Below are positions 6,755 to 32,605 of a stretch of DNA of 46,232 nt, piece after piece. The translations under genes were made by a program, and so were the position numbers. The notes beneath the pieces were generated by a model. The model had not been told where the DNA came from, ran no database searches, and was given only the letters and a program-made list of their open reading frames with translations. Source of the stretch: Eubacteriales bacterium. GTDB lineage: Bacteria; Bacillota; Clostridia; Lachnospirales; Vallitaleaceae. Numbering within the stretch: position 1 is the stretch's first letter; the number at the start of each line of letters is the position of its first letter. The stretch is from assembly GCA_030535295.1 (NCBI GenBank), contig JAUMXK010000010.1, positions 1-46,232 of the forward strand, written 5' to 3'.

Positions 6755-7381
6755 TTAAATGCTTTCTTTTAACGCCCTCATCATCAGCATTGCCACTGCC
6801 GCACCCGGATCTTCCAACTTTCTGGATTCCTCTCCTCGTGTGGCTGCTCTGCCATGCACAGCTATCATAGTCGTTGTGTTTTGAAAGCCTTTTTCAGCTG
6901 CAATGGCTGCTTCTTCCACAAGCAGCGGCAAATTCTTTCCCTTGGCTACTCCTGTTTTTAAGGACTCTACCGCCGGATACAACCCATCTAAAAATGTTTT
7001 TTCTCCGACTTTTGCTTTTCCTCTGCCGGCTACCCCATCAAAATAGGCCTGAAACAAAGTTACAAATTCCTCATCCTTTAACTCGGTCTTACCCTTTAAT
7101 TCCTTGCCCGCCTGCATAAAGCCGGATGCCATCAAAGTTCCCATGGTTGACGGTACTTTTATTGACATTGCCTTTCCTGCCTGATATAGTATCTTACCCA
7201 AATCCGACTCGGTAGTATGTGCTACTTCATCAAAGGCTGCCGCAAAGCCGTCCCCCATCGTTAAGCCTAAGTCACCATCTCCCACTACACTGTCTAAATC
7301 AATTAAATATCCTCGATTTTGCTCCATAATGTCTTTTAACTTTTCTAAGAATAAGAGCAAATCCACTTTCGTAAAAATCAT
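6755..7381 (-). CDS. dhaL: Dihydroxyacetone kinase subunit DhaL
   Basis: The 208-residue protein is the nucleotide-binding DhaL subunit. The Mg-ADP site is visible as Asp30, Asp35 and Asp37 in DLDSVVGDGDLG, at the same numbering as the E. coli protein, and the helical-barrel segments with PSTMGTLMASGFMQAG follow. With DhaK it would phosphorylate dihydroxyacetone, or a related short ketose such as erythrulose, to the phosphate. No DhaM phosphoryl donor is encoded nearby, so it either uses a DhaM made elsewhere or acts in an ATP-dependent pair. It is the last gene of the microcompartment operon, with a GGAG ribosome-binding site and a terminator just downstream. Confidence 0.88.
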   Translation of the reverse strand: MIFTKVDLLLFLEKLKDIMEQNRGYLIDLDSVVGDGDLGLTMGDGFAAAFDEVAHTTESDLGKILYQAGKAMSIKVPSTMGTLMASGFMQAGKELKGKTELKDEEFVTLFQAYFDGVAGRGKAKVGEKTFLDGLYPAVESLKTGVAKGKNLPLLVEEAAIAAEKGFQNTTTMIAVHGRAATRGEESRKLEDPGAAVAMLMMRALKESI

Positions 7382-7432
7382 TTTCCACTCCTTTCCCTTT
7401 TCTACACTTCACCATTCTCTTTTCTTCCCTCG

Positions 7433-8440
7433 TTACGCCTTGAAAAACGGCGTTTCTACGGGGCTTAATAAATATTGTTTCAGTTCATCATCTAACTTCA
7501 GCAGAGAAATCGATAATCCTGCCATTTCCAAAGAAGTCACATATTCCCCTACATAGTATTTAAATACTTTGATTCCCTTTTCTTTTAAGAATTGATCGAC
7601 TCGGCGAGTAACGATATATTGTTCATCCAAAGTCGTAGCTCCCAGCCCATTAACAAGTACCGCCACTTCATCACCGCTCTGATACGGCAAATCGGAAACG
7701 ATCTTCTCCAGCATTTCCTCGGTGATTTGATCGGCTGTTTCCAGCTTTCCTCTACGAATTCCGGTTTCGCCATGAATGCCCATTCCGATTTCCATTTCAT
7801 CTTCTCCCAATGTAAAACCGGGCTTTCCTACTCTCGGTACAATGCAGGGAGTCAAAGCAACGCCCATTGTTCGAACATTGTCTGCCGCTTTTTGGGCAAC
7901 TCTGGTCACCTCATCCAGACTAAGCATCGCTTCTGCCGCCCCACCGGCACATTTGTATACAAAGAAGATTCCGGCAACTCCACGTCGAGTATTCTTTCCA
8001 CCGGTTTCTTCTGCTGACGGCGATGCTACATCCTCTCCGGCTACCACGCTGCGAACCGGAATATTATCTTCAAAATCCGCCATCTCCGCTGCCATATCGA
8101 AGTTAAAGATATCGCCATTATAATTTCCGTAAATATAAAGCACTCCTGCTCCCGAATCAATATATCTGGTCACTGCCAGCATTTGCTCAGCACTTGGTGA
8201 TTGAAAGACATCTCCGACCGAGCATCCATCCAACATTCCTTTTCCTACATAGCCTAAGAACAAAGGTAAATGCCCGGATCCGCCACCGGTCGCAATGCCA
8301 ACCTTGCCCTCTTTCTTATTGGCAGTGACATAACAACGCAAATCATCATTGGTATACGTTACCAAATCCGGATGGGCGGCATAGATTCCCTCCAACATTT
8401 CGTTGACATAGTTTTCCGCTGCGTTCATAATTTTTTTCAT
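7433..8440 (-). CDS. dhaK: Dihydroxyacetone kinase subunit DhaK
   Basis: This 335-residue protein has the substrate-binding GGGSGH motif at 52-57 and the histidine that forms a covalent hemiaminal with the keto substrate, His223 in GMGIHGETG. The start is chosen at 8440, preceded by GGGAG. It lies 51 bases before dhaL. Its product in the usual pathway, DHAP, is also the product of the class II aldolases encoded in this window, so both would feed the same lower-glycolysis entry point. A role on another ketose cannot be excluded. A 185-base spacer separates it from the alcohol dehydrogenase gene; I see no convincing promoter there. Confidence 0.88.
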   Translation of the reverse strand: MKKIMNAAENYVNEMLEGIYAAHPDLVTYTNDDLRCYVTANKKEGKVGIATGGGSGHLPLFLGYVGKGMLDGCSVGDVFQSPSAEQMLAVTRYIDSGAGVLYIYGNYNGDIFNFDMAAEMADFEDNIPVRSVVAGEDVASPSAEETGGKNTRRGVAGIFFVYKCAGGAAEAMLSLDEVTRVAQKAADNVRTMGVALTPCIVPRVGKPGFTLGEDEMEIGMGIHGETGIRRGKLETADQITEEMLEKIVSDLPYQSGDEVAVLVNGLGATTLDEQYIVTRRVDQFLKEKGIKVFKYYVGEYVTSLEMAGLSISLLKLDDELKQYLLSPVETPFFKA

Positions 8441-8625: not shown

Positions 8626-9777
8626 CTATCGGGGAATCAATATCTTCCGATAAATCTCAACCAAAACCTCTTTTTGCGGTTGCTTGCAATTCCCCGGCAT
8701 ACATGTATCTTGCATGGCCAATTCCGCCAACTTTTCGATATCACCGGGTTTTAAATCAACGTTTAATAGCGGCGGAATCCCCACTTCTCCCGCTAAATGC
8801 TTTACTGCTTCCACCACTGCCGATACCGCTTGTTTCTGATTTCGGGCAGTGATTTCAAATGCTTCTGCCAGTTTAGCAAAGCCCGAAGCACATTCCGGAT
8901 GTTGTCCGTTCCAGTGTAAAACATGTGGCAATAAGACGGCATTACATACCCCATGAGGAAGATTATAAAATCCTCCCATCGCATGTGCCATTGCATGCAC
9001 CATTCCTAATCCGGCATTGGAAAATGCCATTCCGGCAGCATACTGTGCATACGCCATTCTTTCTCTGGCAAGGGTATGATTGCCGTCTTTGACCGCAATG
9101 GGTAAGTACTCCTTAATTTGGCGAATTGCCCAAAAGGCATCTTTATCCGTTAGCGGCGTGGCACCACGAGTTAAGATTGCTTCCATCGCATGGGTTAGAG
9201 CATCCATTCCGGTGGCTGCTGTCAGTGCCGGTGGCATAGATACCATCAAGTCGGTATCATTGACGGCAATTTCCACCATACAATTCGTATCTACCATGCA
9301 CATTTTACTGTGCTTTGCTCGGTCCGTGATGACATAAAAACTGGTGACTTCCGCTCCGGTTCCGGCAGTTGTGTTAACCGCAATAATAGGGATGCCGGCT
9401 TTCTTTGACTTCCCGACTCCCTCATAATCCCCAATTCTGCCTCCGTTGACACACAAAATGCTGACTGCCTTAGCCGTATCAATCGAAGATCCTCCGCCAA
9501 CAGCAACTAATACGTCAACCTCTAATTCCTGTGCCGCATAGGTACATGCCTCTACTATTTCAACCGAAGGATTTGCTTCCACTTCATAATAAATAGCATA
9601 TTCCATTCCGGCATCTAAAATATGCCGCCCCACCTTATCTGCCGTGCCATTCTCATATAAAAACGAATCGGTAACCATTAAGGCACGACGATACTTTCTC
9701 TTTTTTAATTCCGCTGTCAAAAGAGCCAATGCCCCCTGTCCGAAAAAATTCGTTTTCACTGCATTCCACTGTTCCAT
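8626..9777 (-). CDS. Iron-containing alcohol dehydrogenase, FucO/DhaT-like
   Basis: The 383-residue group III alcohol dehydrogenase has the NAD-binding GGGSSID motif (94-100) and four metal ligands, Asp192, His196, His261 and His275, in GMDALTHAMEA and the segment from GMVHAMAHAMGG to LPHGV. Relatives include lactaldehyde reductase (FucO) and 1,3-propanediol dehydrogenase. In this operon it would reduce the aldolase-derived aldehyde (lactaldehyde to 1,2-propanediol, or acetaldehyde to ethanol), regenerating NAD+ for the aldehyde dehydrogenase. No clear encapsulation peptide is visible at either end, so whether it works inside the shell is open. Confidence 0.87.
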   Translation of the reverse strand: MEQWNAVKTNFFGQGALALLTAELKKRKYRRALMVTDSFLYENGTADKVGRHILDAGMEYAIYYEVEANPSVEIVEACTYAAQELEVDVLVAVGGGSSIDTAKAVSILCVNGGRIGDYEGVGKSKKAGIPIIAVNTTAGTGAEVTSFYVITDRAKHSKMCMVDTNCMVEIAVNDTDLMVSMPPALTAATGMDALTHAMEAILTRGATPLTDKDAFWAIRQIKEYLPIAVKDGNHTLARERMAYAQYAAGMAFSNAGLGMVHAMAHAMGGFYNLPHGVCNAVLLPHVLHWNGQHPECASGFAKLAEAFEITARNQKQAVSAVVEAVKHLAGEVGIPPLLNVDLKPGDIEKLAELAMQDTCMPGNCKQPQKEVLVEIYRKILIPR

Positions 9778-9807: not shown

Positions 9808-10542
9808 TCACTGAAATTCTATTGCTCGATAGTTTTCCGGATCCAGTCTTTGTAAATAATTTAATTCCTCTTTGGTCGGCGGCTCGATTTGTCTTACGGC
9901 TGCTTTGGAAATGGAAAACCCGGTCCGCTCCTTGACTTCTTCTAACGTAGTATAGGGATAAATCGCTTCCGGCTCCAGTTGGCCGTCTATATATTCAAAC
10001 ACACATAAAGGCGTAATTACCTTTGAAAGATTTCCCTTCGTTGTTATAAAATCAACTTTGTCTACAAAGGTTCTGGTATCATGTTTGGTTCGCCAAATAA
10101 TTGCCCGTTTGACGGTGGGAATCAGGACCGCACTCCCCGCACCGCCGGGCATTCTGACTTTGGGCTTATGATAATCTCCAATGACCGAAGCATTGACATG
10201 TCCTCCTTTATCAAATTGAATCCCGCTTAAAAATGCAATATCCAATTGTCCCCGCATTGACAAATCAAATATTTCCGCCAGTGGAAAGTAAGCCGTACTT
10301 CTTTCCAGCAGCTCTGCTCCTGCCGAACTGTATTTGACCGGTTTTTTCGGTATCGCATCCATTCCGCCCGGAATATTCAGATAGACCGCATTAGGGGCAT
10401 GGGTTGCTCTTGCCAGTAAAAAAGCAATCATCGGCATATGGGAAGAAACTCCATGAAAAACCTTATCCCCATCTTTAATTTGCCTGGACATCGCGCAAAC
10501 CATCATGTCGCAAATTCGTATTCCCTTTTCTGCTTTGTTCAT
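9808..10542 (-). CDS. CoA-transferase family I, beta-type subunit (GctB-like)
   Basis: This 244-residue protein resembles the beta subunits of glutaconate-type CoA-transferases, with GGAGSAVLIPTVKRAIIW and FDKGGHVNASVIGDY segments. Family members normally carry a catalytic glutamate in an E-x-G motif following the first Rossmann segment. Here the corresponding stretch reads AVYLNIPGGMDA with no glutamate at the expected place, as in IpdB-type proteins that act as hydrolases rather than transferases. The alignment was done by eye, so this is tentative. It pairs with the alpha-like gene directly upstream. The acyl-CoA substrate is unknown; propionyl-, lactyl- or acetyl-CoA would fit the pathway. 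Confidence 0.75.
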   Translation of the reverse strand: MNKAEKGIRICDMMVCAMSRQIKDGDKVFHGVSSHMPMIAFLLARATHAPNAVYLNIPGGMDAIPKKPVKYSSAGAELLERSTAYFPLAEIFDLSMRGQLDIAFLSGIQFDKGGHVNASVIGDYHKPKVRMPGGAGSAVLIPTVKRAIIWRTKHDTRTFVDKVDFITTKGNLSKVITPLCVFEYIDGQLEPEAIYPYTTLEEVKERTGFSISKAAVRQIEPPTKEELNYLQRLDPENYRAIEFQ

Positions 10543-10623
10543 TTTATTATCCTTCCCGTCTATCCATTGGCAATTTCTGTTTTCCTTTTGTTCTCCGCTT
10601 TTTCGCTTCCTGTTTTTTGCCTG

Positions 10624-11421
10624 TTATTCGATTTTTAAATACCTATCCAACTCTTTTTGACCCGCTAATTTCTTAAACGCTTCGATTTCTCTCCGGTCAA
10701 TATCATATTTTCCCGGACAATCTCCGGGAGCCGCCCCTTTCGGAGCATGAACCACAGCCGATACCATAAAGTGCGGGATATCGGCTTTTTCTTTCGCATA
10801 GGCAAAACGAGTATCCGGAACTATGGTTTCTGCTGAAATAATTACCGTTTTCGCCGCTCTTGATAAAAGGACATCTTCGAATTTAGGTCCATCCATCCGA
10901 GCATTGCCGTACCGATCCGCTTCATGAACATGGATGACCGCTATATCCGGCTGAATTGCCCGAACGGCATATAACCACTCATTTCCAAACGGATTTGCCA
11001 CCTTAGCGAAATATTCATTGACTTCTGTCAAATCCGAAACTTGCAATCCTCGTACCGGCATAAACGGAATTCCATATGCAGCCGCTCGCAGAGCGGAAAT
11101 AATGGTATAGCAGGCATGCTCTTCGGCTACGATTCTCCCGCTCTCTACTCCTTTTCGGTAATGATTGGCGAGTGAAAATTCACTTTCATAACTGACAAAT
11201 CCGGCCGTCACTGTCTTCACACAATCTGCATAGCACAATAGGTCAATGTCCATCGCTCCGGCAGTTTTTACGATTTTCAAGTTTTTCTTTTGTTGCCTTG
11301 CCATTTCTTTAACAATCGCCATCGGTGCTCGGTGGAGTACATTTCCTCCCAAGCCGACCGTCATACCGTCTTCGATTCTTCCGACCGCTTCGGCAATTGA
11401 CATTCTCTTATCTTCTCGCAT
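10624..11421 (-). CDS. CoA-transferase family I, alpha-type subunit (GctA-like)
   Basis: The product is 265 residues when started at the ATG at 11421, which has AGGAG seven bases upstream and lies 10 bases after the preceding stop. An in-frame start at 11481 would overlap the upstream gene and add 20 unlikely residues. The N-terminal DGMTVGLGGN is the oxyanion/CoA-binding glycine loop of family I CoA-transferases, and the IHVHEADRYGNARMDG segment is typical of the GctA branch. It should form a heterodimer with the next gene, moving CoA between carboxylates or, if the partner truly lacks the catalytic glutamate, hydrolysing an acyl-CoA or beta-keto acyl-CoA. Confidence 0.77.
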   Translation of the reverse strand: MREDKRMSIAEAVGRIEDGMTVGLGGNVLHRAPMAIVKEMARQQKKNLKIVKTAGAMDIDLLCYADCVKTVTAGFVSYESEFSLANHYRKGVESGRIVAEEHACYTIISALRAAAYGIPFMPVRGLQVSDLTEVNEYFAKVANPFGNEWLYAVRAIQPDIAVIHVHEADRYGNARMDGPKFEDVLLSRAAKTVIISAETIVPDTRFAYAKEKADIPHFMVSAVVHAPKGAAPGDCPGKYDIDRREIEAFKKLAGQKELDRYLKIE

Positions 11422-11431
11422 GGTATTTCTC

Positions 11432-12763
11432 CTATTTTGCAGCATTGCATGCAATTTGAACGGCATCCCACACTCCGGCAAATGGCGGAGCGTAAACGAG
11501 GTCGGTCATTCCCAAAGCCTCGGTTGTCATTTCATTTTGAATCGCCACCGCAAAAATGTTGATTCGCATAACCGCTCCCTTTTCGCCAATCGCCTGTGCT
11601 CCTAATATTTTTCTGCTTTTCTTTTCATAAATAACTTTAACCGTCAGTTTCGTCGGATTGGGATAATATGCAGGGTGATCGGTAGTTTCAATCAAGCTGA
11701 CTTTATAATCAATCCCTCCAGAGGCCGCTTCTTTTTCCCCTAAACCGGTTCTGGCAAGCTCTAAGTCACATACCTTAATTGCTGCCGACCCTAAAGCTCC
11801 GATAAATTCTTCTCTGCCCCCGGCAATATTGGCTCCGGCAATTCGTCCGCATTTGTTGGCAACCGTTCCCAATGCCAAGTAGCGGTAATCCTTTGTGTTC
11901 TTGTGGTAAACCAGACTACAATCTCCTGCCGCATAAATATTAGGAATGGAGGTTTCCAGCTTTTGATTCACCAATATCGCACCATTTTCTGCCAGTTTTA
12001 TTCCGCTTCCCTTTAAAAATGAGGTATTCGGACGAATTCCAACAGAAACTATCACCAAATCCGCCGGATAGGATGCCTTGTTCGTTATCACCTGACGCAC
12101 ATAAAAATCACCCTCAAAGCGAGTCACTTTTTCTGAAGTGTGAACCCGAACTCCTTGTTTTTCCAATTCCGCGAAAGCCAATGCGGAAATCTCCGCATCA
12201 AAAGGTCCTAAGATATGTTCTCCGGCTTCCACTACCCGCACATTCTTTCCCAAATGTAAAAATGCTTCGGCACATTCGATACCGATATATCCACCTCCGA
12301 CAATTACTACATTGCGAATCTCTTGCTGCTTTGCATATTCTTTGAGGAAAATACCGTCTTCCAAACTTTTTAAAGTATGCACTCCCATCTTTTCCCAACC
12401 TTCCACCGATAAGGTGACGGGACTCGCACCGGTCGCAATCATTAGGCGATCATATTGTTTGGTCAATTGCTGATTGTTGTTCGAGTTATGAACTGTCACC
12501 GTTTGCCGGTTCGGATCTACTGCAATTACTTCATGTCGCAGACAACACTCGATTCCCATTTGTTCAAACTGCTCTTTGCTTCGAGCAATCATCTTGCGGT
12601 AGTCCTCATTAAATCCACCGACATAATAAGGTAATCCGCAAGCTCCATAAGATAAAAAGTTCCCTTTTTCATAGACGGTTATCTCCGCTTTCGGATTCTT
12701 CCGGATAATTTTTGAAGCTGCCGACATGCCGGCTGCCACTCCGCCAATAATGATTACTTTCAC
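11432..12763 (-). CDS. CoA-disulfide reductase / NADH oxidase-like flavoprotein
   Basis: The 443-residue protein starts best at the GTG at 12763, directly behind AAAGGAGG, giving the FAD-binding N-terminus VKVIIIGGVAAGMSAASK. A single redox cysteine lies in SYGACGLPYYVGG near residue 42, as in CoA-disulfide reductases and NADH oxidases of the pyridine nucleotide-disulfide family. A second Rossmann motif VVIVGGGYIGIECAE binds NAD(P)H, and ASYPADLVIVSVGIRPN and the dimerisation domain follow. It would either keep CoA reduced or reoxidise NADH. Its place inside a microcompartment operon that uses CoA heavily favours a CoA or persulfide role. No encapsulation peptide is seen. Confidence 0.82.
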   Translation of the reverse strand: MKVIIIGGVAAGMSAASKIIRKNPKAEITVYEKGNFLSYGACGLPYYVGGFNEDYRKMIARSKEQFEQMGIECCLRHEVIAVDPNRQTVTVHNSNNNQQLTKQYDRLMIATGASPVTLSVEGWEKMGVHTLKSLEDGIFLKEYAKQQEIRNVVIVGGGYIGIECAEAFLHLGKNVRVVEAGEHILGPFDAEISALAFAELEKQGVRVHTSEKVTRFEGDFYVRQVITNKASYPADLVIVSVGIRPNTSFLKGSGIKLAENGAILVNQKLETSIPNIYAAGDCSLVYHKNTKDYRYLALGTVANKCGRIAGANIAGGREEFIGALGSAAIKVCDLELARTGLGEKEAASGGIDYKVSLIETTDHPAYYPNPTKLTVKVIYEKKSRKILGAQAIGEKGAVMRINIFAVAIQNEMTTEALGMTDLVYAPPFAGVWDAVQIACNAAK

Positions 12764-12793
12764 GTTTCCTCCTTTCCTCACTCACTACCGCAG

Positions 12794-13888
12794 TCATATC
12801 GCTTCGATTCTGCTTTTTGCTCTTTCTATTGCGGTTTGCGGGCTGATTTGACCGATAAATGCTTTGTAAATTTCTTCATATAAGATCCCGTTTTTTTCTC
12901 CGGATTTTTCTACCGGCGGAAAAGCTCTGGCTACTTCCATCATTTTTCGCTGGGCAGCATACCAAGCCTGCTGCTTTTCTCCTATTTCATAGGTTTGCTC
13001 ACGAATCGGTGTTCCACTGTAGTTTGCCACAATCTCATCGACTTTCGGTGTTCGTAGATACTCCAGTAACTTTTCTGCTGCTTCTTTGTTGGAACTGCAA
13101 ACACTTATCGCAAATGACCAGGTGACATTCCAGCCGGTTTCTAATGCCGAAAAGCCCAAGTCTTCAGGTTCCAAGCAATCTTTGCCGACGACGACTCCCA
13201 TTTGTCCGCTCCATGTAATGGCCAAAGGGACTTCTTTTCGGTGAATGGCATTGGCGACTTCTTCATTTCCATAGGTTTCTGTGCCGACTATGGCATATTG
13301 TCTGAGATGACAGTATTCCGCCAAACCTTTTTCCGCTTCATCACCATACCAACAATACTTTCCGTTCTGATCGTAAATCTTTGCTCCTTCCATCCTAAGA
13401 AAAGGAAGAGCATCCGTTAAAATCTCCGACGCATGTGCTTTCATGGCAATCGGTCGTCCCTGCTTCGCCATCTCTTTCGCCAATCGAATATATTCCTGAG
13501 GTGAAATCTTATCCGGCAGTTCCTTACCCAATAAGCTTTTGCGGTAAACAACCAAATGCCCGTCATAAAAAGATGGCGAGAGATATATCTTGTCTCGGTA
13601 TTTCATTTCTTCGGCAACCGATGTTACCAATGGCTTTAAATCATAGCTTAACTCATGCAGATATCCTTTTTCCGCAAAATCACACAACCACAGATGTCCG
13701 GCAACCATAAAGATATCATAATCCGCCTGACCGCTAAAGATTTGTAACATCGTCGGATAGTACTCCGCCCAAGGCACAATGTCAAACTGCACCGGCATAC
13801 CGATTGCCTTTTCCATCTCGGCTTGCAAAGGAACATAACCTAAAACCGCCGGATCTTTCACGGCTAGGATTTTCAGTTTCTTTTCCAT
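12794..13888 (-). CDS. Family 1 solute-binding-like protein with no signal peptide
   Basis: The 364-residue sequence has the look of a family 1 extracellular solute-binding protein: LKILAVKDPAVLGY at the start, the IVPWAEYYPTMLQIFSGQADYDIFMV segment and the EVPLAITWSGQMGVV segment. Such proteins normally begin with a signal peptide or lipobox, but this one starts straight into the domain. The EutN-like gene stops 9 bases upstream, so no secretion signal can be hidden there. The start at 13888 has AGGAG six bases upstream; ATG 13894 is too close to it. No permease genes adjoin it. The product is probably cytosolic, perhaps a sugar or sugar-phosphate binding protein or sensor. The function is unknown. 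Confidence 0.7.
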   Translation of the reverse strand: MEKKLKILAVKDPAVLGYVPLQAEMEKAIGMPVQFDIVPWAEYYPTMLQIFSGQADYDIFMVAGHLWLCDFAEKGYLHELSYDLKPLVTSVAEEMKYRDKIYLSPSFYDGHLVVYRKSLLGKELPDKISPQEYIRLAKEMAKQGRPIAMKAHASEILTDALPFLRMEGAKIYDQNGKYCWYGDEAEKGLAEYCHLRQYAIVGTETYGNEEVANAIHRKEVPLAITWSGQMGVVVGKDCLEPEDLGFSALETGWNVTWSFAISVCSSNKEAAEKLLEYLRTPKVDEIVANYSGTPIREQTYEIGEKQQAWYAAQRKMMEVARAFPPVEKSGEKNGILYEEIYKAFIGQISPQTAIERAKSRIEAI

Positions 13889-13897
13889 ATCCATCTC

Positions 13898-14158
13898 CTA
13901 TTCTTCGATTTGTGGCGGTGCATCGACAATTCCTACAATAAACGCATCCAGTGGTGCCGGTTGCTTCAGTGCATGCTGCGTCGTGTTATCGGTTGTCACC
14001 AGAACCAATTCTCCGATTCCTGCTCCGATGGTGTCAGCTGCTACAAATATCTTTTTGGGATTGCCGAAATAAGTTTCAACTAAGAGCAGCTTATATCCTA
14101 CCAAATTTTCACATTTTCTGGTGGAAACAAGATTTCCTTTCACCGTTCCTAAAATCAT
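13898..14158 (-). CDS. BMC-P vertex protein (EutN/CcmL/PduN family)
   Basis: The 86-residue protein matches the pentameric EutN_CcmL family that caps the vertices of microcompartment shells: MILGTVKGNLVSTRK at the start, KLLLVE, FVAADTIGAGIGELVLVTT in the middle and AFIVGIVD near the end. The start has AAAGGAGG upstream. Its first 50 bases overlap the 3' end of the pduL-like gene in another frame, suggesting tight translational coupling. It is the only vertex gene in the locus. Confidence 0.93.
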   Translation of the reverse strand: MILGTVKGNLVSTRKCENLVGYKLLLVETYFGNPKKIFVAADTIGAGIGELVLVTTDNTTQHALKQPAPLDAFIVGIVDAPPQIEE

Positions 14159-14813
14159 ACTCTGCCTCCTTTCTGCGAATCCATACTTTTTGCCCTTGCT
14201 TTAAGAGAAAGGCATTGGCATCATCCACATCAATGTGAAAATCTAAGCGAGCGGTATCGGAAACCCTTATTAAGACCTCGTTCATCACTCCGCCTTTTTG
14301 CCCGGGTATCACCACTTCTACTCTTTCCCCATCGGTTACACCAAACCATTTCGCATCTGCCGGAGTCATATGGATATGTCGGTCGGCAATAATGACACCT
14401 TCTTTTAGAATAACGCTCCCCTTAGGTCCGATTAGTTTAATTCCCGGAGTGCCGGAGATATTGCCCGAAGAGCGAACCGGTGGCTGTATGCCCAATCCTC
14501 TTGTTTCCGAAAATGCCAATTCAACCTGGCTATGACTCCGCTCCGGACCAAGTATTCGAAGTTGCATTTGCTTGCCGGTCACTCCTTCTATCGTAACTTT
14601 CTCATTTGCGGCAAATTGACCGGGCTGACTTAAATCCTTGAATTTCGTCAATTGATATCCTTTTCCGAATAAGGTATCCACATCCGCTCTGGTTAAATGA
14701 ACATGCCGAGCCGATATCCCCACTGGAATATAATAAGGATTCTCCGTTAGTTCTGCTAAATTTTTTATTACCAAATCGGTAATCTGCTCGGTAAGGTCAT
14801 GTTTCTTTTCCAT
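14109..14813 (-). CDS. pduL: PduL-type phosphate propanoyl/acetyltransferase
   Basis: The 234-residue protein has the two PTAC domains of PduL with the zinc-binding histidines in ISARHVHLT (His37, His39) and ADRHIHMT (145-150), and a third HID segment at 193-195. It converts an acyl-CoA plus phosphate into an acyl-phosphate and frees CoA for the aldehyde dehydrogenase inside the lumen. The first 22 residues (LTEQITDLVIKNLAEL) form an amphipathic helix typical of BMC encapsulation peptides and lie ahead of the catalytic domain. The C-terminus runs 50 bases into the vertex-protein gene. The start is supported by AAAGGAG seven bases upstream. Confidence 0.93.
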   Translation of the reverse strand: MEKKHDLTEQITDLVIKNLAELTENPYYIPVGISARHVHLTRADVDTLFGKGYQLTKFKDLSQPGQFAANEKVTIEGVTGKQMQLRILGPERSHSQVELAFSETRGLGIQPPVRSSGNISGTPGIKLIGPKGSVILKEGVIIADRHIHMTPADAKWFGVTDGERVEVVIPGQKGGVMNEVLIRVSDTARLDFHIDVDDANAFLLKQGQKVWIRRKEAEYDFRNGERKSCFHQKM

Positions 14814-14911: not shown

Positions 14912-15214
14912 CTATTTTATATAGGGCAAAATCTCGCCTACGCTAACATGTGGTCTTGGGATGACATGAACTGCCACCAACTCACCGATACGGGAAGCTG
15001 CTTCTTGTCCTGCCTCCACTGCCGCCTTAACGGCTCCGACATCTCCTTGAACCATTACCGTGACAAGACCGGAACCTATTTTCTCTGTTCCGACAAGCTC
15101 GACATCGGCGGATTTGAGCATGGCATCTGCCGCTTCAATCGATGCGGTTAGTCCTCTGGTTTCAATCATTCCCAATGCTTGCATTCCCTTTTTTACTTCT
15201 TTTTTTTCTTCCAT
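14912..15214 (-). CDS. BMC-H shell protein (PduA/EutM-like), copy 2
   Basis: Started at the ATG at 15214 (AGAGG seven bases upstream) this is a 100-residue hexamer-forming shell protein with a charged 10-residue leader, [10 protein letters not shown]. From [21 protein letters not shown] onward it is nearly identical in protein sequence to the gene at 15704-15985, including the central pore loop KIGSGL, though the DNA has diverged at many synonymous sites. The same frame is open further upstream to an ATG at 15364, which would add a 50-residue basic extension; that ATG has no clear ribosome-binding site. The final tail [12 protein letters not shown] differs from its paralogue. Confidence 0.9.
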
Positions 15215-15380
15215 TTTAATACCTCTGGTTTGTTTTGCTGCCGACAACGGTTCTGCATTTGTCGGTTCTTTTGTTATTACTGATTTGACTTGTTTTCTCA
15301 TTGAATTCCTCATTTCATCGCTTCTTCGCGATTTATTTCCACTTTTTGAAATTCGTTTTTTCATCTACCGTTTTATACAG

Positions 15381-15680
15381 CTAATTTTGATATTCCTTTT
15401 GGTTTATCATATTTAATAATTTAATCACTTCCGGATGTGGGTTACTGACACAAACGGCAACTTTTAAATTATCTTCTCCGATAATTTTCTTGCTTTGCTT
15501 GGCGGTTTCAATTGCCGCTTCTACCTCAGATGTCGTACCGGCAACAATCCCATGTGTCATTTGACCGCCAAGCGTATCATGATAGCTGACCAGTTCTACA
15601 GCTGCCGCCTTGAGCATTTGGTCAAGGACGACAACTGTTTTGGAATAATAGCTTACTTCAATCACACCAATTGCATTCAT
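15381..15680 (-). CDS. Divergent BMC-H shell protein
   Basis: This 99-residue protein keeps the single BMC fold outline (MNAIGVIEVSYYSKTVVVLD, then KAAAVELVSY, and a C-terminal EVIKLL) but is far from its neighbours. The pore region reads LGGQMT instead of KIGSGL, so its pore should differ in chemistry. The start is ambiguous: ATG 15680 begins the domain cleanly, while GTG 15695 would add five residues; neither has an ideally spaced ribosome-binding site, and coupling to the gene ending at 15704 is likely. In other loci such divergent BMC-H proteins tune shell transport; here its cargo is unknown. Confidence 0.82.
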   Translation of the reverse strand: MNAIGVIEVSYYSKTVVVLDQMLKAAAVELVSYHDTLGGQMTHGIVAGTTSEVEAAIETAKQSKKIIGEDNLKVAVCVSNPHPEVIKLLNMINQKEYQN

Positions 15681-15703
15681 TTTCAACGAAATCACGCCCT
15701 ATC

Positions 15704-15985
15704 TTACTTTAACGACGGTAAAATCTTAGCGATGTCGCCATGCGGTCTTGGAATGACATGAACTGCGACTAACTCACCAATGCGAGAAGCCGCTTCTTGT
15801 CCTGACTCGGTTGCTGCTTTGACCGCTCCGACTTCCCCTTGAACAATGACGGTTACAAGTCCTGAGCCAATCTTTTCGGTGCCTACCAGTTCCACATCCG
15901 CTGCTTTAAGCATAGCATCTGCCGCCTCGATGGATGCGGTAAGTCCTCTGGTTTCAATCATTCCGATTGCTGATAAATTTGCCAT
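15704..15985 (-). CDS. BMC-H shell protein (PduA/EutM-like), copy 1
   Basis: The 93-residue protein is a canonical hexameric shell subunit: [41 protein letters not shown] with the GSG pore loop, and [11 protein letters not shown] near the end. It is probably the major facet protein. AGGAGG stands before the start. A 118-base spacer separates it from the upstream shell gene. It is paralogous to 14912-15214. Confidence 0.94.
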
Positions 15986-16104: not shown

Positions 16105-16425
16105 CTAAATTTCAGTCCTTAATTTGATCTTGCTGATTTGACTTAATTGCTTCGTTCCAAGATACGGATTTTCAATAACTCGTGTCACCACTTCATGCGG
16201 TTCATTCAGTTCTAAAGCTGCTCTTTCCGCAACGGCAGCAGCTTCTTTTACCGCAGAAACATCTCCCTCAAACTTAACTTGTACCGTTAACGGGATAAAT
16301 GCTGCTGTATTCTTGGGGTTGATTGTATCAATTCCCAGAATTGTAATGTCAGCAGTTTTGCATGCCTTATCCATAGCATAAATGACGGCACCGTAGCCGG
16401 CACACTCCAAAAAACCAATTGCCAA
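16105..16425 (-). CDS. BMC-H shell protein, third type
   Basis: The 106-residue protein begins MAIGFLECAGYGAVIYAMD, keeping the BMC pattern in which the usual ETRG is replaced by ECAG, and continues with ADITILGIDTINPKNTAAFIPLTVQVKFEGDVSAVKEA. The pore-region residues NPKNTAAF differ from the GSG loop of its neighbours. The C-terminal extension after NPYLGTKQL is basic. It follows the aldehyde dehydrogenase by 27 bases and is the first shell gene of the operon. Taken with the others the locus has four single-domain BMC-H genes and no two-domain BMC-T gene. Confidence 0.88.
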   Translation of the reverse strand: MAIGFLECAGYGAVIYAMDKACKTADITILGIDTINPKNTAAFIPLTVQVKFEGDVSAVKEAAAVAERAALELNEPHEVVTRVIENPYLGTKQLSQISKIKLRTEI

Positions 16426-16452: not shown

Positions 16453-17877
16453 TTAGACAATTCGCAGACCCCCGTCTGCCAGTTGACATCTTCTGCGTCT
16501 GGTAAAACTCTTGGCACAAGTCAAACCTTCTCCTGTCGGACCGGCAATGGTCATAGTTGTATACCCTTCTCCACCAATGCCTACTCCTCGTAATGTCGAA
16601 CCATTTTTCACAAAAACGGTTGTCTCGATTCTCTTGGCAAAATACGTCATATGATCCACATTTTTGGAAAACATTGATGCGGTGTGGCGATTCCCGTTTT
16701 CGGCTTTGATTGCCCACTCTACCGCCTGCTCAAAATTATCACACCCTACAACGGGCAAAATAGGCATTAGCTGCTCTACCATAACAAAGGGATGATCATG
16801 ATTGGTCTTACAAAGCAAAAGCCTAATCTTATCATTTGTTATCCCTAACTCTCTAAGCATCTTTCCGGCATCTTGTCCGACCCACTGCTTATTGACTTCA
16901 TATTTTCCGTTTTCCTGCTTGTATACAATATTAAGCAATCTTGCCGTCTGCTCATCGCTTAGTAAATAGGCTCCTTGTTCTTGCATAAGAGAGAGAAACG
17001 GGTTAAGTACATCCTTTACCACAAACACTTCTTTCTCTGCCAAACACAGCAAATTGTTATCAAACGATGCCCCATGGTAAATCTCTTTGGCTGCCAGTTC
17101 CAAATCTGCAGTTTCATCAATTACCACCGGCGGATTTCCGGCACCTGCACCGATTGTCTTTTTTCCGGATCTCAACAATGCGTTGACCATCGGCATACCG
17201 CCGGTCCCCACCATCAAACGAATATGTGGGCTTTCCGTCATTACTTTAACGGTTTCCATTGTAGGCTCTTTGACCATTGTAATCAAGTTCTTCGGACCGC
17301 CATTATTTACAATAGTGCGATGAATCAATTGCAAACAATAGGCACAAACCCGCTTGGCTGCCGGATGCACATTATAGACAACGCTGTTGCCACCGGCAAT
17401 CATGCTTATGGTATTATTGATAATGGTTTCTGTCGGATTGGTGGTCGGTGTAATCGCTCCAATTACACCATAGGGTCCGTATTCTTCCAGCATTAAACCG
17501 GTATCTCCGGAGATGGCATCGGTGGTCAGACATTCCGTCCCCGGCGTTTTTTCAATAACAACCCGGTGCTTTTGGATTTTGTCCTCGTATCTGCCCATTC
17601 TGGTTTCTTGCCAAACCCTCCTTGCCAAATCTTCCGCATTTTGGCTACAAACTGTGCGAATTGCATCAATTAATCGCTTCCTGTCCTCTAATGTATAACG
17701 GCTGAATTCTTTTTGAGCATCTTTGGCTGCTTCGATGGCATCTTGCATTTTCTCGAAAACACCATCTTCTCCTTGCTCCTTCTTATATTGCACCTGACTT
17801 GCAAGTGGTGATGTTTCCGATAAATCGGCAATCACTTGCCTTACAATTTTCTCAATATCCACTGTCGTTAATTTCAT
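16453..17877 (-). CDS. CoA-acylating aldehyde dehydrogenase (PduP/EutE-like), encapsulated
   Basis: The 474-residue protein belongs to the PduP/EutE family, which oxidises an aldehyde to its acyl-CoA with NAD+. The catalytic cysteine is Cys278 in GASFDNNLLC, and the cofactor-binding ITPTTNPTETIINN and VGTGGMPMVNALL segments are present. The first 20 residues, KLTTVDIEKIVRQVIADL, are a textbook encapsulation peptide followed by a flexible linker. With PduL it would make acyl-phosphate from the aldehyde released by the aldolase: acetyl, lactyl or methylthioacetyl depending on the sugar. It directly follows the aldolase gene by 9 bases. Confidence 0.93.
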   Translation of the reverse strand: MKLTTVDIEKIVRQVIADLSETSPLASQVQYKKEQGEDGVFEKMQDAIEAAKDAQKEFSRYTLEDRKRLIDAIRTVCSQNAEDLARRVWQETRMGRYEDKIQKHRVVIEKTPGTECLTTDAISGDTGLMLEEYGPYGVIGAITPTTNPTETIINNTISMIAGGNSVVYNVHPAAKRVCAYCLQLIHRTIVNNGGPKNLITMVKEPTMETVKVMTESPHIRLMVGTGGMPMVNALLRSGKKTIGAGAGNPPVVIDETADLELAAKEIYHGASFDNNLLCLAEKEVFVVKDVLNPFLSLMQEQGAYLLSDEQTARLLNIVYKQENGKYEVNKQWVGQDAGKMLRELGITNDKIRLLLCKTNHDHPFVMVEQLMPILPVVGCDNFEQAVEWAIKAENGNRHTASMFSKNVDHMTYFAKRIETTVFVKNGSTLRGVGIGGEGYTTMTIAGPTGEGLTCAKSFTRRRRCQLADGGLRIV

Positions 17878-17886
17878 GTCCGCCTC

Positions 17887-18822
17887 CTAACTTTCCAATT
17901 GGCTAACCACTCGCCGCACAACTTCGGCAATAATCTGCTCTTTGGTTTTAGCCGCCTTATCGGGTTCTATGGCAGGTATGGAGCCTCTGGAACTGCATCC
18001 GCATGGTTCTTTGTCAGAAGGCCGAACAATCGGGGTCACTCCTTTTAAACCGCTTTTTTCTACCGGATGAACTCTTTTTTCCAAACTCGTTTGCCGATTA
18101 GTGATGACATCCTCGGTATTATTTGAAGTTAGCGAACATGGCGGAACCCCTCCACCGGTGATTCCCAGCTTATTTCTGGTCTGAAGCAAATTATCGATTT
18201 GCCCACATGAAAGCGGTTTTTGTTGTCCGATGATTCTGCCGGTATACATCAATAATGTAGCATAATATTCGACTGACTCCAAACGGTAAAAGGCCTCATA
18301 GATATCTTTTCCCCATGTCAATGCTCCATGGTTTGCCAGCAAGACGGCATTGTGTGTCTTACAATATGGAGCAATCGAGTCCGGCACTTCTTGGGTTCCC
18401 GGTTCCGCATAACGGGCGATTGGAACTACTCCAAGATTGACAACGCTTTCTGTTAAAATCGGCTCTTCCAAAGCAATTCCGGCTGCGGCATAGGCTGTCG
18501 ATACCGGCGGATGGGCATGGGTCACTGCCATAATCTCCGGGTTTTCTTGATACACCCGCAGATGCATTTTTACCTCGGACGAAGGCTTGCGATTCCCCAA
18601 CAATACCTTACCGGTAATATCTATTTTTACTAACATTTCCGGTGTCATAAAGCCTTTCGATACACCGGTCGGTGTTGTCCAGAAAGTCTTAGGACCGACC
18701 CGACAAGTGATATTCCCGTCATTGGCAGCCACAAAGCCTTTTAAATACATGCGTTTGCCGATATCAATAATCGCTTTTTTGGCTTCAAAGTCGGTCATAT
18801 ATTTTGTTCCGTTAATTACCAA
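17887..18822 (-). CDS. Class II aldolase with C-terminal microcompartment-targeting peptide
   Basis: The 311-residue protein starts at a TTG (18822) with GAGGTG seven bases upstream; an ATG lies eight codons in. Residues 8-210 are a class II (FucA/RhaD-type) zinc aldolase with Glu83 in SSEVKMH, His102 and His104 in THAHPP, and His165 in LLANHG. After a linker of about 70 residues that includes CGCSS comes a C-terminal amphipathic helix, KEQIIAEVVRRVVSQLES, a clear encapsulation peptide. It should cleave a 1-phospho-ketose to DHAP and an aldehyde inside the shell. As first gene of the operon it is the likely signature enzyme. The substrate could be fuculose-, rhamnulose-, 5-deoxyribulose- or methylthioribulose-1-phosphate. 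Confidence 0.92.
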   Translation of the reverse strand: MVINGTKYMTDFEAKKAIIDIGKRMYLKGFVAANDGNITCRVGPKTFWTTPTGVSKGFMTPEMLVKIDITGKVLLGNRKPSSEVKMHLRVYQENPEIMAVTHAHPPVSTAYAAAGIALEEPILTESVVNLGVVPIARYAEPGTQEVPDSIAPYCKTHNAVLLANHGALTWGKDIYEAFYRLESVEYYATLLMYTGRIIGQQKPLSCGQIDNLLQTRNKLGITGGGVPPCSLTSNNTEDVITNRQTSLEKRVHPVEKSGLKGVTPIVRPSDKEPCGCSSRGSIPAIEPDKAAKTKEQIIAEVVRRVVSQLES

Positions 18823-18962: not shown

Positions 18963-19721
18963 ATGTTAGCAGTAACTCGTAAATCTCATATCAAAGATAT
19001 CCTGCTGGAGAAGAAGAGCGTCACTGTTTCCGAATTGTCAAAATTATTTAATGTTACAGAAGAAACGGTTCGTCGTGATTTAAAACAAATGGAAGACGAA
19101 GGCTTTTTAGTCAAGACCTATGGCGGTGCTTTTATTCAGGGTGGCGTAGAAAATGATGTCGCTCTTTCCCTAAGAGAAACCGCATATTTAAAAAACAAAC
19201 AGGCGATTGCCCTAAAAGCCAAGGAACTGATTCATCATGGAGATTGTATCTTCCTTGATTCTTCCACTACAGCCTTGGCTATTGCCAAAGCAATTAAAGA
19301 CATGCGTCTGACGGTTGTCACCCATTCCTTAATGGTGATGGATCAGCTTCGAGATTGGGAAAACATCCATTTGATATGTATTGGCGGCAATTACTCCGCA
19401 AAAAGCAAATCCAATCTGGGTATGTTTACCCTCCAAGCATTAGACAACTATTATATTGATAAAACCTTCATGTCTTGTCGAACCTTAAGTATGGAACACG
19501 GAATCACCGATTCCAACGAATCCCTTGCCTGTATTCGGCAAAAATTGATTCAAAGAAGCAGTTTAACTTATATTATCGCTGACTTTTCCAAATTTGACAA
19601 AACTTCCTTTATTCACATCTGTGATTTTGAGCAAATCCACGGTCTGGTTACCGATAGTGATTTGTCGGATGAGTGGCGAAAGTTCCTACGCAGGAAAAAA
19701 GTATCTTTATATGAGTGTTAA
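18963..19721 (+). CDS. DeoR-family transcriptional regulator of the microcompartment operon
   Basis: The 252-residue protein has an N-terminal DeoR winged helix (residues 6-58, with VSELSKLFNVTEETVRRDLKQM) and a C-terminal sugar-phosphate sensing DeoRC domain with DSSTTALAIAKA. These repressors usually release DNA when they bind a phosphorylated sugar. It is divergent from the aldolase gene, with AAAGGAG before its ATG, so it is the natural candidate to regulate the operon and itself by the inverted repeat at 18928-18942. The inducer is probably a pathway 1-phospho-ketose or DHAP; this is inference. Confidence 0.9.
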   Translation: MLAVTRKSHIKDILLEKKSVTVSELSKLFNVTEETVRRDLKQMEDEGFLVKTYGGAFIQGGVENDVALSLRETAYLKNKQAIALKAKELIHHGDCIFLDSSTTALAIAKAIKDMRLTVVTHSLMVMDQLRDWENIHLICIGGNYSAKSKSNLGMFTLQALDNYYIDKTFMSCRTLSMEHGITDSNESLACIRQKLIQRSSLTYIIADFSKFDKTSFIHICDFEQIHGLVTDSDLSDEWRKFLRRKKVSLYEC

Positions 19722-19734
19722 ATAAATGATAGAA

Positions 19735-20823
19735 TTAGCCTTTTAAGGCTTTTTCTTTTTTGGCAAAGATTTCCTTTAACGACTCGGTATATGGCGGTCG
19801 GGCAATTCCAAACTCGGTAATAATACCGGCAATTAAATCATGATCGGTGACATCAAAAGCAGGATTAAATACCTTTACCCCTTTTGGAGCCATTCTTTCT
19901 TTATACCACATTTCCGTAATTTCTTCCGCCGGACGCTCTTCAATATGAATGTCATCTCCGGTCAAAGTGTTTAAATCAATGGTTGATGTCGGTGCGCAAA
20001 TATACACCGGAATGCCATAACGCTTGGCAACGGTCGCTACGACGGATGTTCCGATTTTATTCGCAGTATCGCCATTTGCAGCCACTCGGTCACAACCTAC
20101 AAACACAGCATCTACCCATCCCTTTTTCATTACCGTAGCTGACATATTATCGCAAATTAAGGTCACATCTAAGCCCGAGGAATGAAGTTCATATGCCGTT
20201 AAACGGGCACCTTGCAGAAGAGGTCTGGTTTCATCGGCAAAAATGCGGAAACGATAGCCTCTTTCATGCCCTAAATACATCGGAGCGGTTGCTGTCCCGT
20301 ATTTGGCAGTTGCCAGTTGTCCGGCATTGCAATGGGTAAGCAATCCATCGCCGTCTTTAATAAGACTTAAACCATATTCTCCAATTGCTTTGCATACCCG
20401 AATATCCTCTTCTTTGATTTCCACCGCTTCTTGCTTTAGTCGTTCGACAATTTCCGGTATTGTTTTTTCTTTGTTTTCCAGACATACTTTTTCCATCCGT
20501 TTTAGTGCCCATGACAAATTAACGGCTGTCGGTCTGGCACTGTCCAGATATTCCTTGGCCTTTTTAAACTCGGCATAGAATTCCTCGAAATTGTCTTTCT
20601 TAATGTCTTTTGCTGCCAAATAAATCCCGATTGCCGCCGCTACGCCAATCGCCGGAGCTCCTCTTACCTGTAACAGGTAAATGGCATTCCAGATTTCTTT
20701 TTGATCTTTGAGCGTTAGAATTTCTGTTGTTTCCGGCAGTTTGGTTTGGTTAATGATAACCAACGCATCCCCGGCTTCGCTTAAAGCAACCGTTTCATAA
20801 TCCATGATTGATTTTTGACTCAT
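19735..20823 (-). CDS. mtnA: S-methyl-5-thioribose-1-phosphate isomerase
   Basis: Started at the ATG 20823 (AAAGGA upstream) the product is 362 residues, normal for MtnA. It has RGAPAIG (54-60), the catalytic cysteine Cys165 in [12 protein letters not shown] and the catalytic aspartate Asp245 in [12 protein letters not shown], at the places expected from the Bacillus enzyme. MtnA converts methylthioribose-1-phosphate to methylthioribulose-1-phosphate and in other bacteria also acts on 5-deoxyribose-1-phosphate. The downstream methionine-salvage genes (mtnB, mtnW/X or mtnC, mtnD) are absent here. Instead, class II aldolases are present, as in the DHAP-shunt type of salvage. It is the last gene of the fuc-ABC-mtn operon. 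Confidence 0.93.
19737..19761 (+). terminator. Short hairpin with T-rich tail after the deoR gene
   Basis: AGCC-TTTTAA-GGCT followed by a T-rich run on the plus strand lies 16 bases after the regulator's stop. It overlaps the last codons of mtnA, which is convergent. The stem is short, so the terminator is probable but weak. Confidence 0.45.
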
Positions 20824-20883
20824 TTTTTTCGTCCTTTCTATCCTATTCAAACTTAGGTGGAAACGATTTCCAATCCACGTTAT

Positions 20884-22107
20884 CTAAACCGTCTTAATTA
20901 CTCTTTCCATCGCCTTGCGATAATCCGCTCCTGTCTTATAGCTATGTCGATTCTTAATATAATCTTTTGCCAATAAAATAATTCTCTTTTCTGCTCGGGC
21001 TCTTTTCTCTTCATCTGCAATTGTCGTAATGTCTTTAACATTCGCCATACCAACGGTTCGGCGAATAAGCTCAAGTCCCGCTACACCGGCGGTATCTGCT
21101 AGAATCGAGTCCAAGTAGTATTCCATAAAACCTTTTACTTTTGCCATTGTATCAGTTGCTTTCTCCGCATACAGCTTCTTAAACTTGACCACGAACAAAT
21201 CAATAATTTGCTCAATTGTTTCCAAAATCCAGCCACAAAATTCTTCTTTTTTTGCTGCATCTTCGATTGTAGCATCGCCATTACACCATGCAAAAAATAA
21301 GTTGGCAATAATATTTCCGACATCATAGCCCATCGGTCCGTAAAAGGCAAACTCCGGATCAAAGACAAAGGTATGGTCTTCATTAATAAAAATCGAACCG
21401 GTGTGCAAATCACCATGAATCAGTGCTTGTGCATTATTCATGAAATCAAACTTTAACTTTGCCGCTTCCAAATGGAGTGCTTCATCCTCATATAATTCTT
21501 TTTTTACAAAATCGGCAATCGGAGGAAAGACATTGTTGCGATGATTATAGTCAATATAAGGCTCGCTATAGACCAAATCCTCTGTAATTTCACATAAATC
21601 CGGATTGATAAAGTTTTTGACATTTTCTTTTTTCTCTTTGTGATTCATTACCACATCCGTGGTCAGGAGCAAAGAATTTACCATAAAGGTACTGATTTGG
21701 TCAGCAAATTTCGGATAAATCTTATGCTGCATCAAAGCTGTCCTCATCATAGTATGCCCAATCATATCTTCCATTAATACGGCACACATCACTCCGTCAT
21801 ATAAAAATACTTCCGGTACCAGTCCTGGGGCATATTGATTTTGAATTTTTAAAATCATCGCTTCGATTCTGCCACGGTCAGTGGAAACATGCATATTCGG
21901 ATCAATGCGGATTGCCTCACCTGCTTGTTTCACAATAATGGATTTGCCTGTTTTTCTGTCTTTCAGACGGAAAACATAATTTAAATTGCCATCTCCGATT
22001 TCTTTACACTCTAAATCTGCCTCCGGCGGAAAAAATGCTAGTTTCTCCGCCACATAATCCGCAATATCTTGTGTATGCATTAAAAAATAGGTATCAAATC
22101 TGGACAT
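20884..22107 (-). CDS. mtnK: S-methyl-5-thioribose kinase
   Basis: The product is 407 residues from the ATG at 22107, which has AAAGGGG upstream; an in-frame start 33 bases earlier adds unrelated residues. It has the protein-kinase-like fold of MtnK: GDGNLNYVFRLKD for ATP binding, the catalytic HGDLHTGSIFIN loop, and FDPEFAFYGPMGYDVGN, the metal-binding and substrate loop of the family. It phosphorylates methylthioribose at C1; homologues also accept 5-deoxyribose. It lies between the transporter genes and mtnA, so sugar import, phosphorylation and isomerisation are consecutive in one operon. Confidence 0.92.
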   Translation of the reverse strand: MSRFDTYFLMHTQDIADYVAEKLAFFPPEADLECKEIGDGNLNYVFRLKDRKTGKSIIVKQAGEAIRIDPNMHVSTDRGRIEAMILKIQNQYAPGLVPEVFLYDGVMCAVLMEDMIGHTMMRTALMQHKIYPKFADQISTFMVNSLLLTTDVVMNHKEKKENVKNFINPDLCEITEDLVYSEPYIDYNHRNNVFPPIADFVKKELYEDEALHLEAAKLKFDFMNNAQALIHGDLHTGSIFINEDHTFVFDPEFAFYGPMGYDVGNIIANLFFAWCNGDATIEDAAKKEEFCGWILETIEQIIDLFVVKFKKLYAEKATDTMAKVKGFMEYYLDSILADTAGVAGLELIRRTVGMANVKDITTIADEEKRARAEKRIILLAKDYIKNRHSYKTGADYRKAMERVIKTV

Positions 22108-22191
22108 AATATTCCCCTTTCTGCCATTTGCTCCTTGCATTCGGATTCTTTTTTCCGTTCAAGGATTTCTATATTGTTTCAATACACTGTA

Positions 22192-23217
22192 TTAACTTAT
22201 CTTCTTTCTGGAGTAAGTCATTGCTAAGGCTATGGCAAGTACCGCTCCTTTAATAATGTTCATTGCATAATATGGTACGGACATCATCATCAAACCGTTT
22301 TCAAGCATACCGACCAGCACCGCTCCAACTAAGGTTCCCAAAGCATTCGGCTTACCGGCACCGGCAACGGAAAAGCCGATAAATGCCGCTGCTACCGCTG
22401 GCATCAAATAGGCATCTCCGGCACTGACCTGAGCCGTTCCTACCCGTGCCGCCAAGCAAATACCACCCAATGCCGCAAAGGTTGCCGATAAAAAATAAGC
22501 TAAAATACGATATTTTGCCACCGAAATTCCGGATAGTCTGGCTGCTTCCGGATTGCCGCCGACAGCATACATATACCTGCCATGCTTGGTATAATTTAAA
22601 AAGAAGAACGCAAAAGCTACTACCAACAGCATAATTACAATCAGCCACGGCTCTTTGCCCAAAGCTCTGAATGCTATCGGAACCAGTCCCGGAGCCTGCA
22701 CGCCATCCGGTCGGGTCATCCGTTCGGTAATCGCACCACCGTTAGAATAGGTTAATGCAACTCCCTGATAGACAAACATAACCGATAATGCCGCTATCAT
22801 ATCAGGAATCTTTAATTTGACAATCAATATGGAGTTAACCACCGCAATGGTTAAACATACCAAAATCGTTAGCACAATTGATACCCCGATATTCATGTTG
22901 TACCAGACAAACATAGTCATAATAAAGGTATCCGCAAAATTGGCATTGGCACCAATGGACATATCCATACCGTTTACTGCTAAGGTAAAGGTTAAACCGA
23001 TGGCAATAATTGCCGTAATCGAAATGCTTCTTAAAATTGTGATAATATTATTCGGAGTTAAAAATAGACTTGTTCCTTTGGCTTCACTCCAGTTTCCGAA
23101 TGTAAAAATCAGTAATAATAGAAAAATCGTAACAATCGTTCCCCATTTATTGACAAAAGAACCGATGGTAAGTTTTTCTTTTTTGGTTCCTCCTTGTAAT
23201 TCCATACCCTGTTTCAT
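22192..23217 (-). CDS. RbsC-type sugar ABC transporter permease (second copy)
   Basis: The 341-residue protein has eight or more membrane segments and the BPD_transp_2 family look (AIGLTFTLAVNGMDMSIGANANFA, GGNPEAARLSGISVAKYRILAY). Start ATG is immediately after the stop of the ATPase gene, whose last bases form its GGGAGG ribosome-binding site. It is 85 bases upstream of mtnK, so it is the best candidate permease for methylthioribose or 5-deoxyribose. It forms a pair with the ATPase at 23218-24729. No separate binding protein accompanies this pair. Confidence 0.88.
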   Translation of the reverse strand: MKQGMELQGGTKKEKLTIGSFVNKWGTIVTIFLLLLIFTFGNWSEAKGTSLFLTPNNIITILRSISITAIIAIGLTFTLAVNGMDMSIGANANFADTFIMTMFVWYNMNIGVSIVLTILVCLTIAVVNSILIVKLKIPDMIAALSVMFVYQGVALTYSNGGAITERMTRPDGVQAPGLVPIAFRALGKEPWLIVIMLLVVAFAFFFLNYTKHGRYMYAVGGNPEAARLSGISVAKYRILAYFLSATFAALGGICLAARVGTAQVSAGDAYLMPAVAAAFIGFSVAGAGKPNALGTLVGAVLVGMLENGLMMMSVPYYAMNIIKGAVLAIALAMTYSRKKIS

Positions 23218-24729: not shown

Positions 24730-24771
24730 TCTTTCACCTTAATACCTTTTCTATTTTACGGCCATGCATCA

Positions 24772-24810
24772 AGTACGCAGAACCCGAAGCAATTCAGGAA
24801 TCTGCGTACT
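24772..24810 (-). other. Intergenic hairpin after the binding-protein gene
   Basis: AGTACGCAGA (24772-24781) and TCTGCGTACT (24801-24810) form a perfect 10-base stem with a 19-base loop and no T-run. It lies 42 bases after the lipoprotein stop. By analogy with binding-protein genes in other ABC operons it probably protects the upstream mRNA and keeps binding protein levels above those of the membrane parts. Confidence 0.6.
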
Positions 24811-24852
24811 GCCTAAAATTCAATATTGTTCTAACACAGAGAAGTTACCATT

Positions 24853-25986: not shown

Positions 25987-26085
25987 AGAAAACCTCCTCG
26001 TATAATAAGTTTTATATTTACCTTTCCGGTGACGGCATAGGATTTCCAATCAGATATCCCTGTACTTTCACCGAAATACTTTACC

Positions 26086-27066: not shown

Positions 27067-27076
27067 TTCACTTCTC

Positions 27077-28570: not shown

Positions 28571-28585
28571 AGCCTTCTCCTTCAT

Positions 28586-29242: not shown

Positions 29243-29262
29243 AATTCTTCCCTTCCTTTCTT

Positions 29263-31041: not shown

Positions 31042-31052
31042 TGTATTCCTCC

Positions 31053-32474: not shown

Positions 32475-32605
32475 ATTTCCTCCCATTGTACTTCCAAATA
32501 CCTTATATAAAATGTCAAAAGATTCGGTAACCGTTTCCTTTGCCGGACAATATCCGACTGCCGGCACTACTGAGATTTTCACGTTCCGTTAAATATTCTC
32601 CAAAC

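Follow-up and report, generated by a model that had tools for sequence, protein, structure and literature searches.

Sugar-binding proteins of the SBP_bac_1 family are exported and partnered with MalF/MalG-type (PF00528) permeases. The same fold has precedents in the cytosol, namely the effector domains of LysR-type regulators and enzymes that resemble solute-binding proteins (HMP synthases and MqnA/D), all of which lie outside SBP_bac_1. Here we describe an SBP_bac_1-type protein that has neither export signal nor permease and is encoded within a bacterial microcompartment (BMC) gene cluster, in a window of 46,232 nucleotides (the whole stretch of DNA analysed) from a Eubacteriales bacterium. 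LysR-type effector domains, HMP synthases and MqnA/D were not among the matches listed in Pfam and NCBIfam scans of this protein, and the literature searched for leaderless or cytosolic solute-binding proteins contained nothing relevant.

Its surroundings resemble two kinds of described systems. The DHAP shunt yields DHAP and an aldehyde from 5-deoxyribose or 5-methylthioribose, and in published 5-deoxyribose salvage clusters the genes for a kinase, an isomerase and a class II aldolase (MtnK, MtnA and Ald2, or DrdK, DrdI and DrdA) lie together with those for an importer, as they do here (PMC6079011, PMC12632272). Unlike those clusters, the ones studied here are as a rule combined with a microcompartment and with a gene for a leaderless binding protein; the words ‘microcompartment’ and ‘binding protein’ are absent from both papers. 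The class II aldolase microcompartments (PVM, PVM-like, GRM5 and ACI), in turn, combine an aldolase and an aldehyde dehydrogenase with shell genes, as here, according to the main text of a 2021 catalogue (PMC8217296), whereas the aldolase in our loci is fed by MtnK and MtnA, instead of or besides fucose and rhamnose enzymes. That main text mentions neither a solute- or substrate-binding protein nor a microcompartment combined with the DHAP shunt; the supplements may list the locus type under another name. Searching the literature for microcompartments in connection with 5-deoxyribose, methylthioribose or the DHAP shunt, we found only one further report, in which a methylthioribose kinase gene of Acetobacterium woodii (Awo_c26590), beside a pdu-type BMC cluster, is called unrelated to BMC function (PMC7593272). 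That gene may merit re-examination in light of a DHAP-shunt microcompartment, a type that, as found around our gene, appears to be undescribed in the literature searched.

Taken as a whole, positions 6755-28585 look like a DHAP-shunt (5-deoxyribose or methylthioribose) microcompartment locus, with genes for MtnK, MtnA, a class II aldolase, an aldehyde dehydrogenase, PduL, the shell, a CoA-disulfide reductase, a CoA transferase and an Fe-type alcohol dehydrogenase (Table 1), and loci similar to it occur in about a dozen genomes. Genes for DhaK and DhaL, parts of dihydroxyacetone kinase, stand at the end of the operon (6755-8440). On the other side, genes for an L-fucose isomerase, a rhamnulokinase-like kinase and a fuculose-phosphate aldolase adjoin the cluster (28586-32582), and lactaldehyde may thus be a further input to this compartment.

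Table 1. Features of the gene cluster around the leaderless binding protein, in window coordinates.
Feature	Position	Strand	Basis or remark
Fe-type alcohol dehydrogenase	8626-9777	-	Sequence and relatives' loci
CoA-transferase subunits	9808-11481	-	Sequence and relatives' loci
CoA-disulfide reductase type flavoprotein	11432-12781	-	Pfam/NCBIfam; immediately downstream of the subject gene
Leaderless SBP_bac_1-type protein, 364 aa (subject)	12794-13888	-	Pfam and reading frame
BMC-P vertex protein (EutN_CcmL)	13898-14158	-	Pfam
PduL-type phosphotransacylase	14109-14813	-	Pfam/NCBIfam
Four BMC-domain shell genes	14912-15364, 15381-15695, 15704-15985, 16105-16425	-	Pfam
CoA-acylating aldehyde dehydrogenase	16453-17877	-	Pfam/NCBIfam; N-terminal encapsulation-peptide-like helix (by eye)
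Class II aldolase	17887-18822	-	Pfam, sequence; C-terminal encapsulation-peptide-like extension (by eye)
DeoR-type regulator, divergent	18963-19721	+	Inspection and relatives at the same place
MtnA, 5-methylthioribose-1-phosphate isomerase type	19735-20850	-	460 bits, cut-off 271
MtnK, 5-methylthioribose kinase type	20884-22140	-	TIGR01767, 425 bits, cut-off 275
RbsABC-type importer genes	22192-28585	-	Same gene cluster
Exported binding protein of the Rbs importer	24853-26049	-	Peripla_BP_4; lipoprotein-like N-terminus

The subject gene ends with a stop codon at 12794-12796 on the minus strand, and an ATG at 13888, six bases from a TAGGAG ribosome site on its 5' side, opens a protein that begins MEKKLKILAVKDPAVLGY. 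A second in-frame ATG, at 13894, extends the protein by MD only; as it sits directly on the GGAG of the ribosome site, 13888 is the better start. There is an in-frame stop two codons above ATG 13894, and therefore neither a longer N-terminus nor a signal peptide is possible. The N-terminus has no hydrophobic segment, its highest 15-residue Kyte-Doolittle mean being 1.32 (family range 0.60-1.73). The initial annotation had the protein open with the first strand of the mature domain nine bases after the vertex gene and without any export signal; coordinates and reading frame agree, the distance from vertex gene to ATG 13888 being exactly 9 bases, and the nearby stop and the N-terminus bear out the missing signal.

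The protein scores 65.8 bits against Pfam SBP_bac_1 (PF01547; cut-off 26), and no NCBIfam model exceeds its cut-off. PDB entries for exported sugar-binding proteins are matched by the family profile along nearly the full length, among them 5ci5 (E value 2.7 × 10−23), SmoF (7nbz, 6.8 × 10−20) and the trehalose/maltose-binding protein (1eu8, 7.7 × 10−18), and the fold is also shared with MalE3 (6dtq) and Lin1841 (5ysb). The family as found has 13 members, which come from the window and five genomes of its own taxonomic family (G002, G008, G010, G011 and G012), from its order (G095 and G181), from the family of G181 (G952 and G953), from elsewhere in the phylum (G835), and from Natronincola peptidivorans (L007) and Acetoanaerobium noterae (L018). 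Among 398 genomes of the phylum, a profile search gave E values beyond 1 × 10−40 for just two, the window's genome and G835, both near 1 × 10−150. Plasmid records yielded one real relative, from Acetoanaerobium, and 21 other matches, the nine listed being distant solute-binding proteins with 21-26% identity; the viral contigs searched contained no relative. In a tree, the 12 distinct rows form one clade against four exported solute-binding proteins of the window's genome (support 100/100), on a stem of 2.36 changes per column. The leaderless family is under purifying selection, with a dN/dS of 0.12 for the closest pair; other pairs for which it was computable gave 0.12-0.30. The protein thus belongs to a leaderless, so far unnamed branch of a known fold, and the clade, tied to the DHAP shunt, has no Pfam or NCBIfam model of its own.

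All 13 members are leaderless and start at the same first strand (MxxIxILAVGDPAV). An in-frame stop lies 0-24 codons above the start in each of the 10 members whose upstream frame was checked, and the other three were called leaderless from their N-termini. As controls, we took the 10 best SBP_bac_1 matches elsewhere in the window's genome, nine of which have a lipoprotein signal, with a lipobox and Kyte-Doolittle values of 2.26-3.09, compared to 0.60-1.73 in the leaderless family. The signal peptide or lipoprotein signal expected of the solute-binding protein of an ABC importer is found in none of the 13, which was the check on relatives at BMC loci that the initial annotation had proposed; an upstream start or signs of decay, which it had named as evidence to the contrary, were likewise not found. 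Cysteine content was also considered and was rejected as evidence, as the ranges overlap too much (3-8 in the family compared to 0-6 in exported controls).

As read from coordinates, 15 of the 17 SBP_bac_1 matches in the window's genome are accompanied by a PF00528 gene no more than a few kb away on their contig, the exceptions being the window protein, whose contig has no match to a MalF/MalG-type permease (PF00528), and one protein on contig C16. The earlier statement that no transporter parts adjoin the gene therefore holds for the MalF/MalG type, but RbsABC-type importer genes lie 8-15 kb away in the same cluster, and the exported binding protein encoded among them is unrelated to the subject protein. 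That the subject is still exported, through a missed start or a non-classical route, or is a decaying exported protein would accord with the extracellular location of the rest of the sequence family. We consider this extremely unlikely, as stops lie close above the start in all 10 members checked, no member has a hydrophobic stretch, frames are intact with a dN/dS well below 1 and the contig is without a MalFG-type permease; decay in particular is contradicted by the 13 leaderless members, their isolated and supported clade and the purifying selection on them.

Across the loci, where neighbouring genes were identified by their resemblance to the window and L007 proteins and, for L018, by reading translations, the constant partners of the family are MtnK and MtnA, in most cases accompanied by a class II aldolase and an importer of the RbsABC type, and not the shell genes. 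Twelve of the 13 members have mtnA and/or mtnK in their own locus, and of 196 genomes of the order, 15 have MtnK, eight have the subject family and seven have both (Fisher p = 2.5 × 10−8, uncorrected for relatedness). There are two exceptions: of mtnA and mtnK, only mtnA is seen on the cut contig of G953, and in G095 the gene belongs to a compartment locus whose contig begins inside the aldolase, with no mtnK detectable in an assembly rated 100% complete. DHAP-shunt microcompartment loci hold 11 of the 13 members and contain an aldehyde dehydrogenase, shell genes and mostly PduL, CoA-disulfide reductase and CoA transferase, the latter two not being seen in the Natronincola stretch. In one locus (L012, 10884-11411), and also in L013-L015, an extra BMC-domain protein of 175 residues is encoded between the vertex and binding-protein genes.

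The abundance of BMC loci among the members, together with the position of the window gene 9 bp after a vertex gene, could indicate a shell-associated or lumenal cargo protein, as the initial annotation had suggested among other roles. This is very unlikely, as the gene occurs without a shell and the compartment without the gene. Two of the 13 members are shell-less: in G002 the order is importer-mtnK-mtnA-aldolase-SBP with no shell gene, shells being encoded elsewhere in that genome, and in G835 it is deoR-rbsB-rbsA-rbsC-mtnA-SBP-mtnK, in a genome rated 96% complete that has not one BMC domain (PF00936). Conversely, G028 has a whole compartment locus in which the vertex gene is followed by the reductase, so the subject gene is dispensable; it is likewise missing from MtnK loci that have another type of permease or a FucA-like aldolase. 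Nor did we see, by eye, a conserved encapsulation peptide at either end of the 13 aligned proteins, as their C-termini differ, several without the last helix, and the proteins begin directly with the first strand of the fold. The shell-less G835 and G002 loci and G028 thus assign the protein primarily to the sugar pathway and to the compartment only in second place. The trees of the binding protein and of MtnK disagree on G002, which suggests a separate transfer. Downstream of the shell-less mtnA-SBP-mtnK operon of G835 (L054, contig C10, roughly 44030-46410) lie an aldehyde:ferredoxin oxidoreductase-like gene, named by eye, and a distant aldolase, possibly for shell-free handling of the aldehyde.

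A place in signal transduction, with the protein handing the sugar on to a chemoreceptor in the cytosol or to DeoR, is hinted at by Natronincola, where the gene directly upstream encodes an MCP-domain protein (L007, 9110-9937; 275 residues, with an MCP signalling domain, a weak sCache match and no obvious transmembrane segment), and by the deoR gene in many of the loci. We regard such a role as improbable, given that the soluble receptor is present in only one of 13 loci and that the effector of a DeoR protein, a sugar phosphate, is normally bound by the regulator itself.

Residues are numbered here from the ATG at 13894. D111 and W259 are invariant in all 13 members and align with the conserved Asp and Trp of the exported SBP_bac_1 sugar binders listed above, residues that presumably touch the sugar in SmoF and the trehalose-binding protein. 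At the positions of SmoF D67 and R345, which we take to contact the sugar there, the subject has an A-G-H motif and a Leu. Across the 13 sequences 57 positions are invariant, many of them His, Lys, Glu, Asp or Asn, and these include H67, H113, K152, H154, E157, N210 and R298. As an AlphaFold model from two sequences (window and L007) reached a mean pLDDT of 42.6, the pocket was read from alignments only.

The simplest reading of these sequences is a two-lobed cytosolic protein that would bind a shunt sugar, perhaps as its 1-phosphate. Its ancestor would have been the exported sugar-binding protein of an ABC importer, with the type II periplasmic-binding-protein fold, whose signal peptide and permeases the subject lineage lost. 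The protein would now serve the DHAP shunt, in which MtnK, MtnA and the class II aldolase act on imported 5-deoxyribose or 5-methylthioribose, its two lobes closing on a pathway sugar or sugar 1-phosphate, and, where a compartment exists, it would work in the cytosol ahead of it. This explanation, in which the protein would act as a sensor, a buffer or a carrier feeding MtnK and MtnA, has in our judgement about an even chance of being right; the missing mtnK of G095, the compartment locus of G028 without the gene and the conflict of trees over G002 speak against it. The cytosolic sensor of a metabolite or sugar phosphate, or chaperone, of the initial annotation fits this reading and the leaderless state of all 13 members.

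Alternatively, the fold may have become catalytic and serve this pathway as an enzyme, such as an anomerase (mutarotase) supplying the anomer that MtnK uses, or one catalysing an accessory sugar-phosphate step. The 57 invariant positions seem to exceed the needs of a loose binder, and in G835 the gene sits between mtnA and mtnK. Anomer conversion can belong to 5-deoxyribose salvage, as Beaudoin et al. drew a fucose-mutarotase homologue inside the Denitrovibrio cluster (PMC6079011). Still, no enzyme is known within SBP_bac_1 itself, the pathway is already complete with its kinase, isomerase and aldolase, and related loci manage without the subject gene, which makes an enzyme unlikely. A joint proposal, which we hold tentatively and think rather unlikely in full, is that the fold was recruited permanently to the cytosol, where it carries out a step of 5-deoxysugar salvage, either as an anomer-converting enzyme or as a sugar-phosphate carrier to MtnK and MtnA, and that shell-less operons and a so far undescribed type of DHAP-shunt microcompartment both make use of it.

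SBP_bac_1 proteins are presumed to be extracellular by default, so that annotation would place the product of this gene on the wrong side of the membrane. The tie between the leaderless clade and the salvage of 5-deoxyribose and methylthioribose points to an unrecognised part of the widespread disposal of SAM by-products, and the clade also marks a type of microcompartment whose aldehyde comes from the DHAP shunt.
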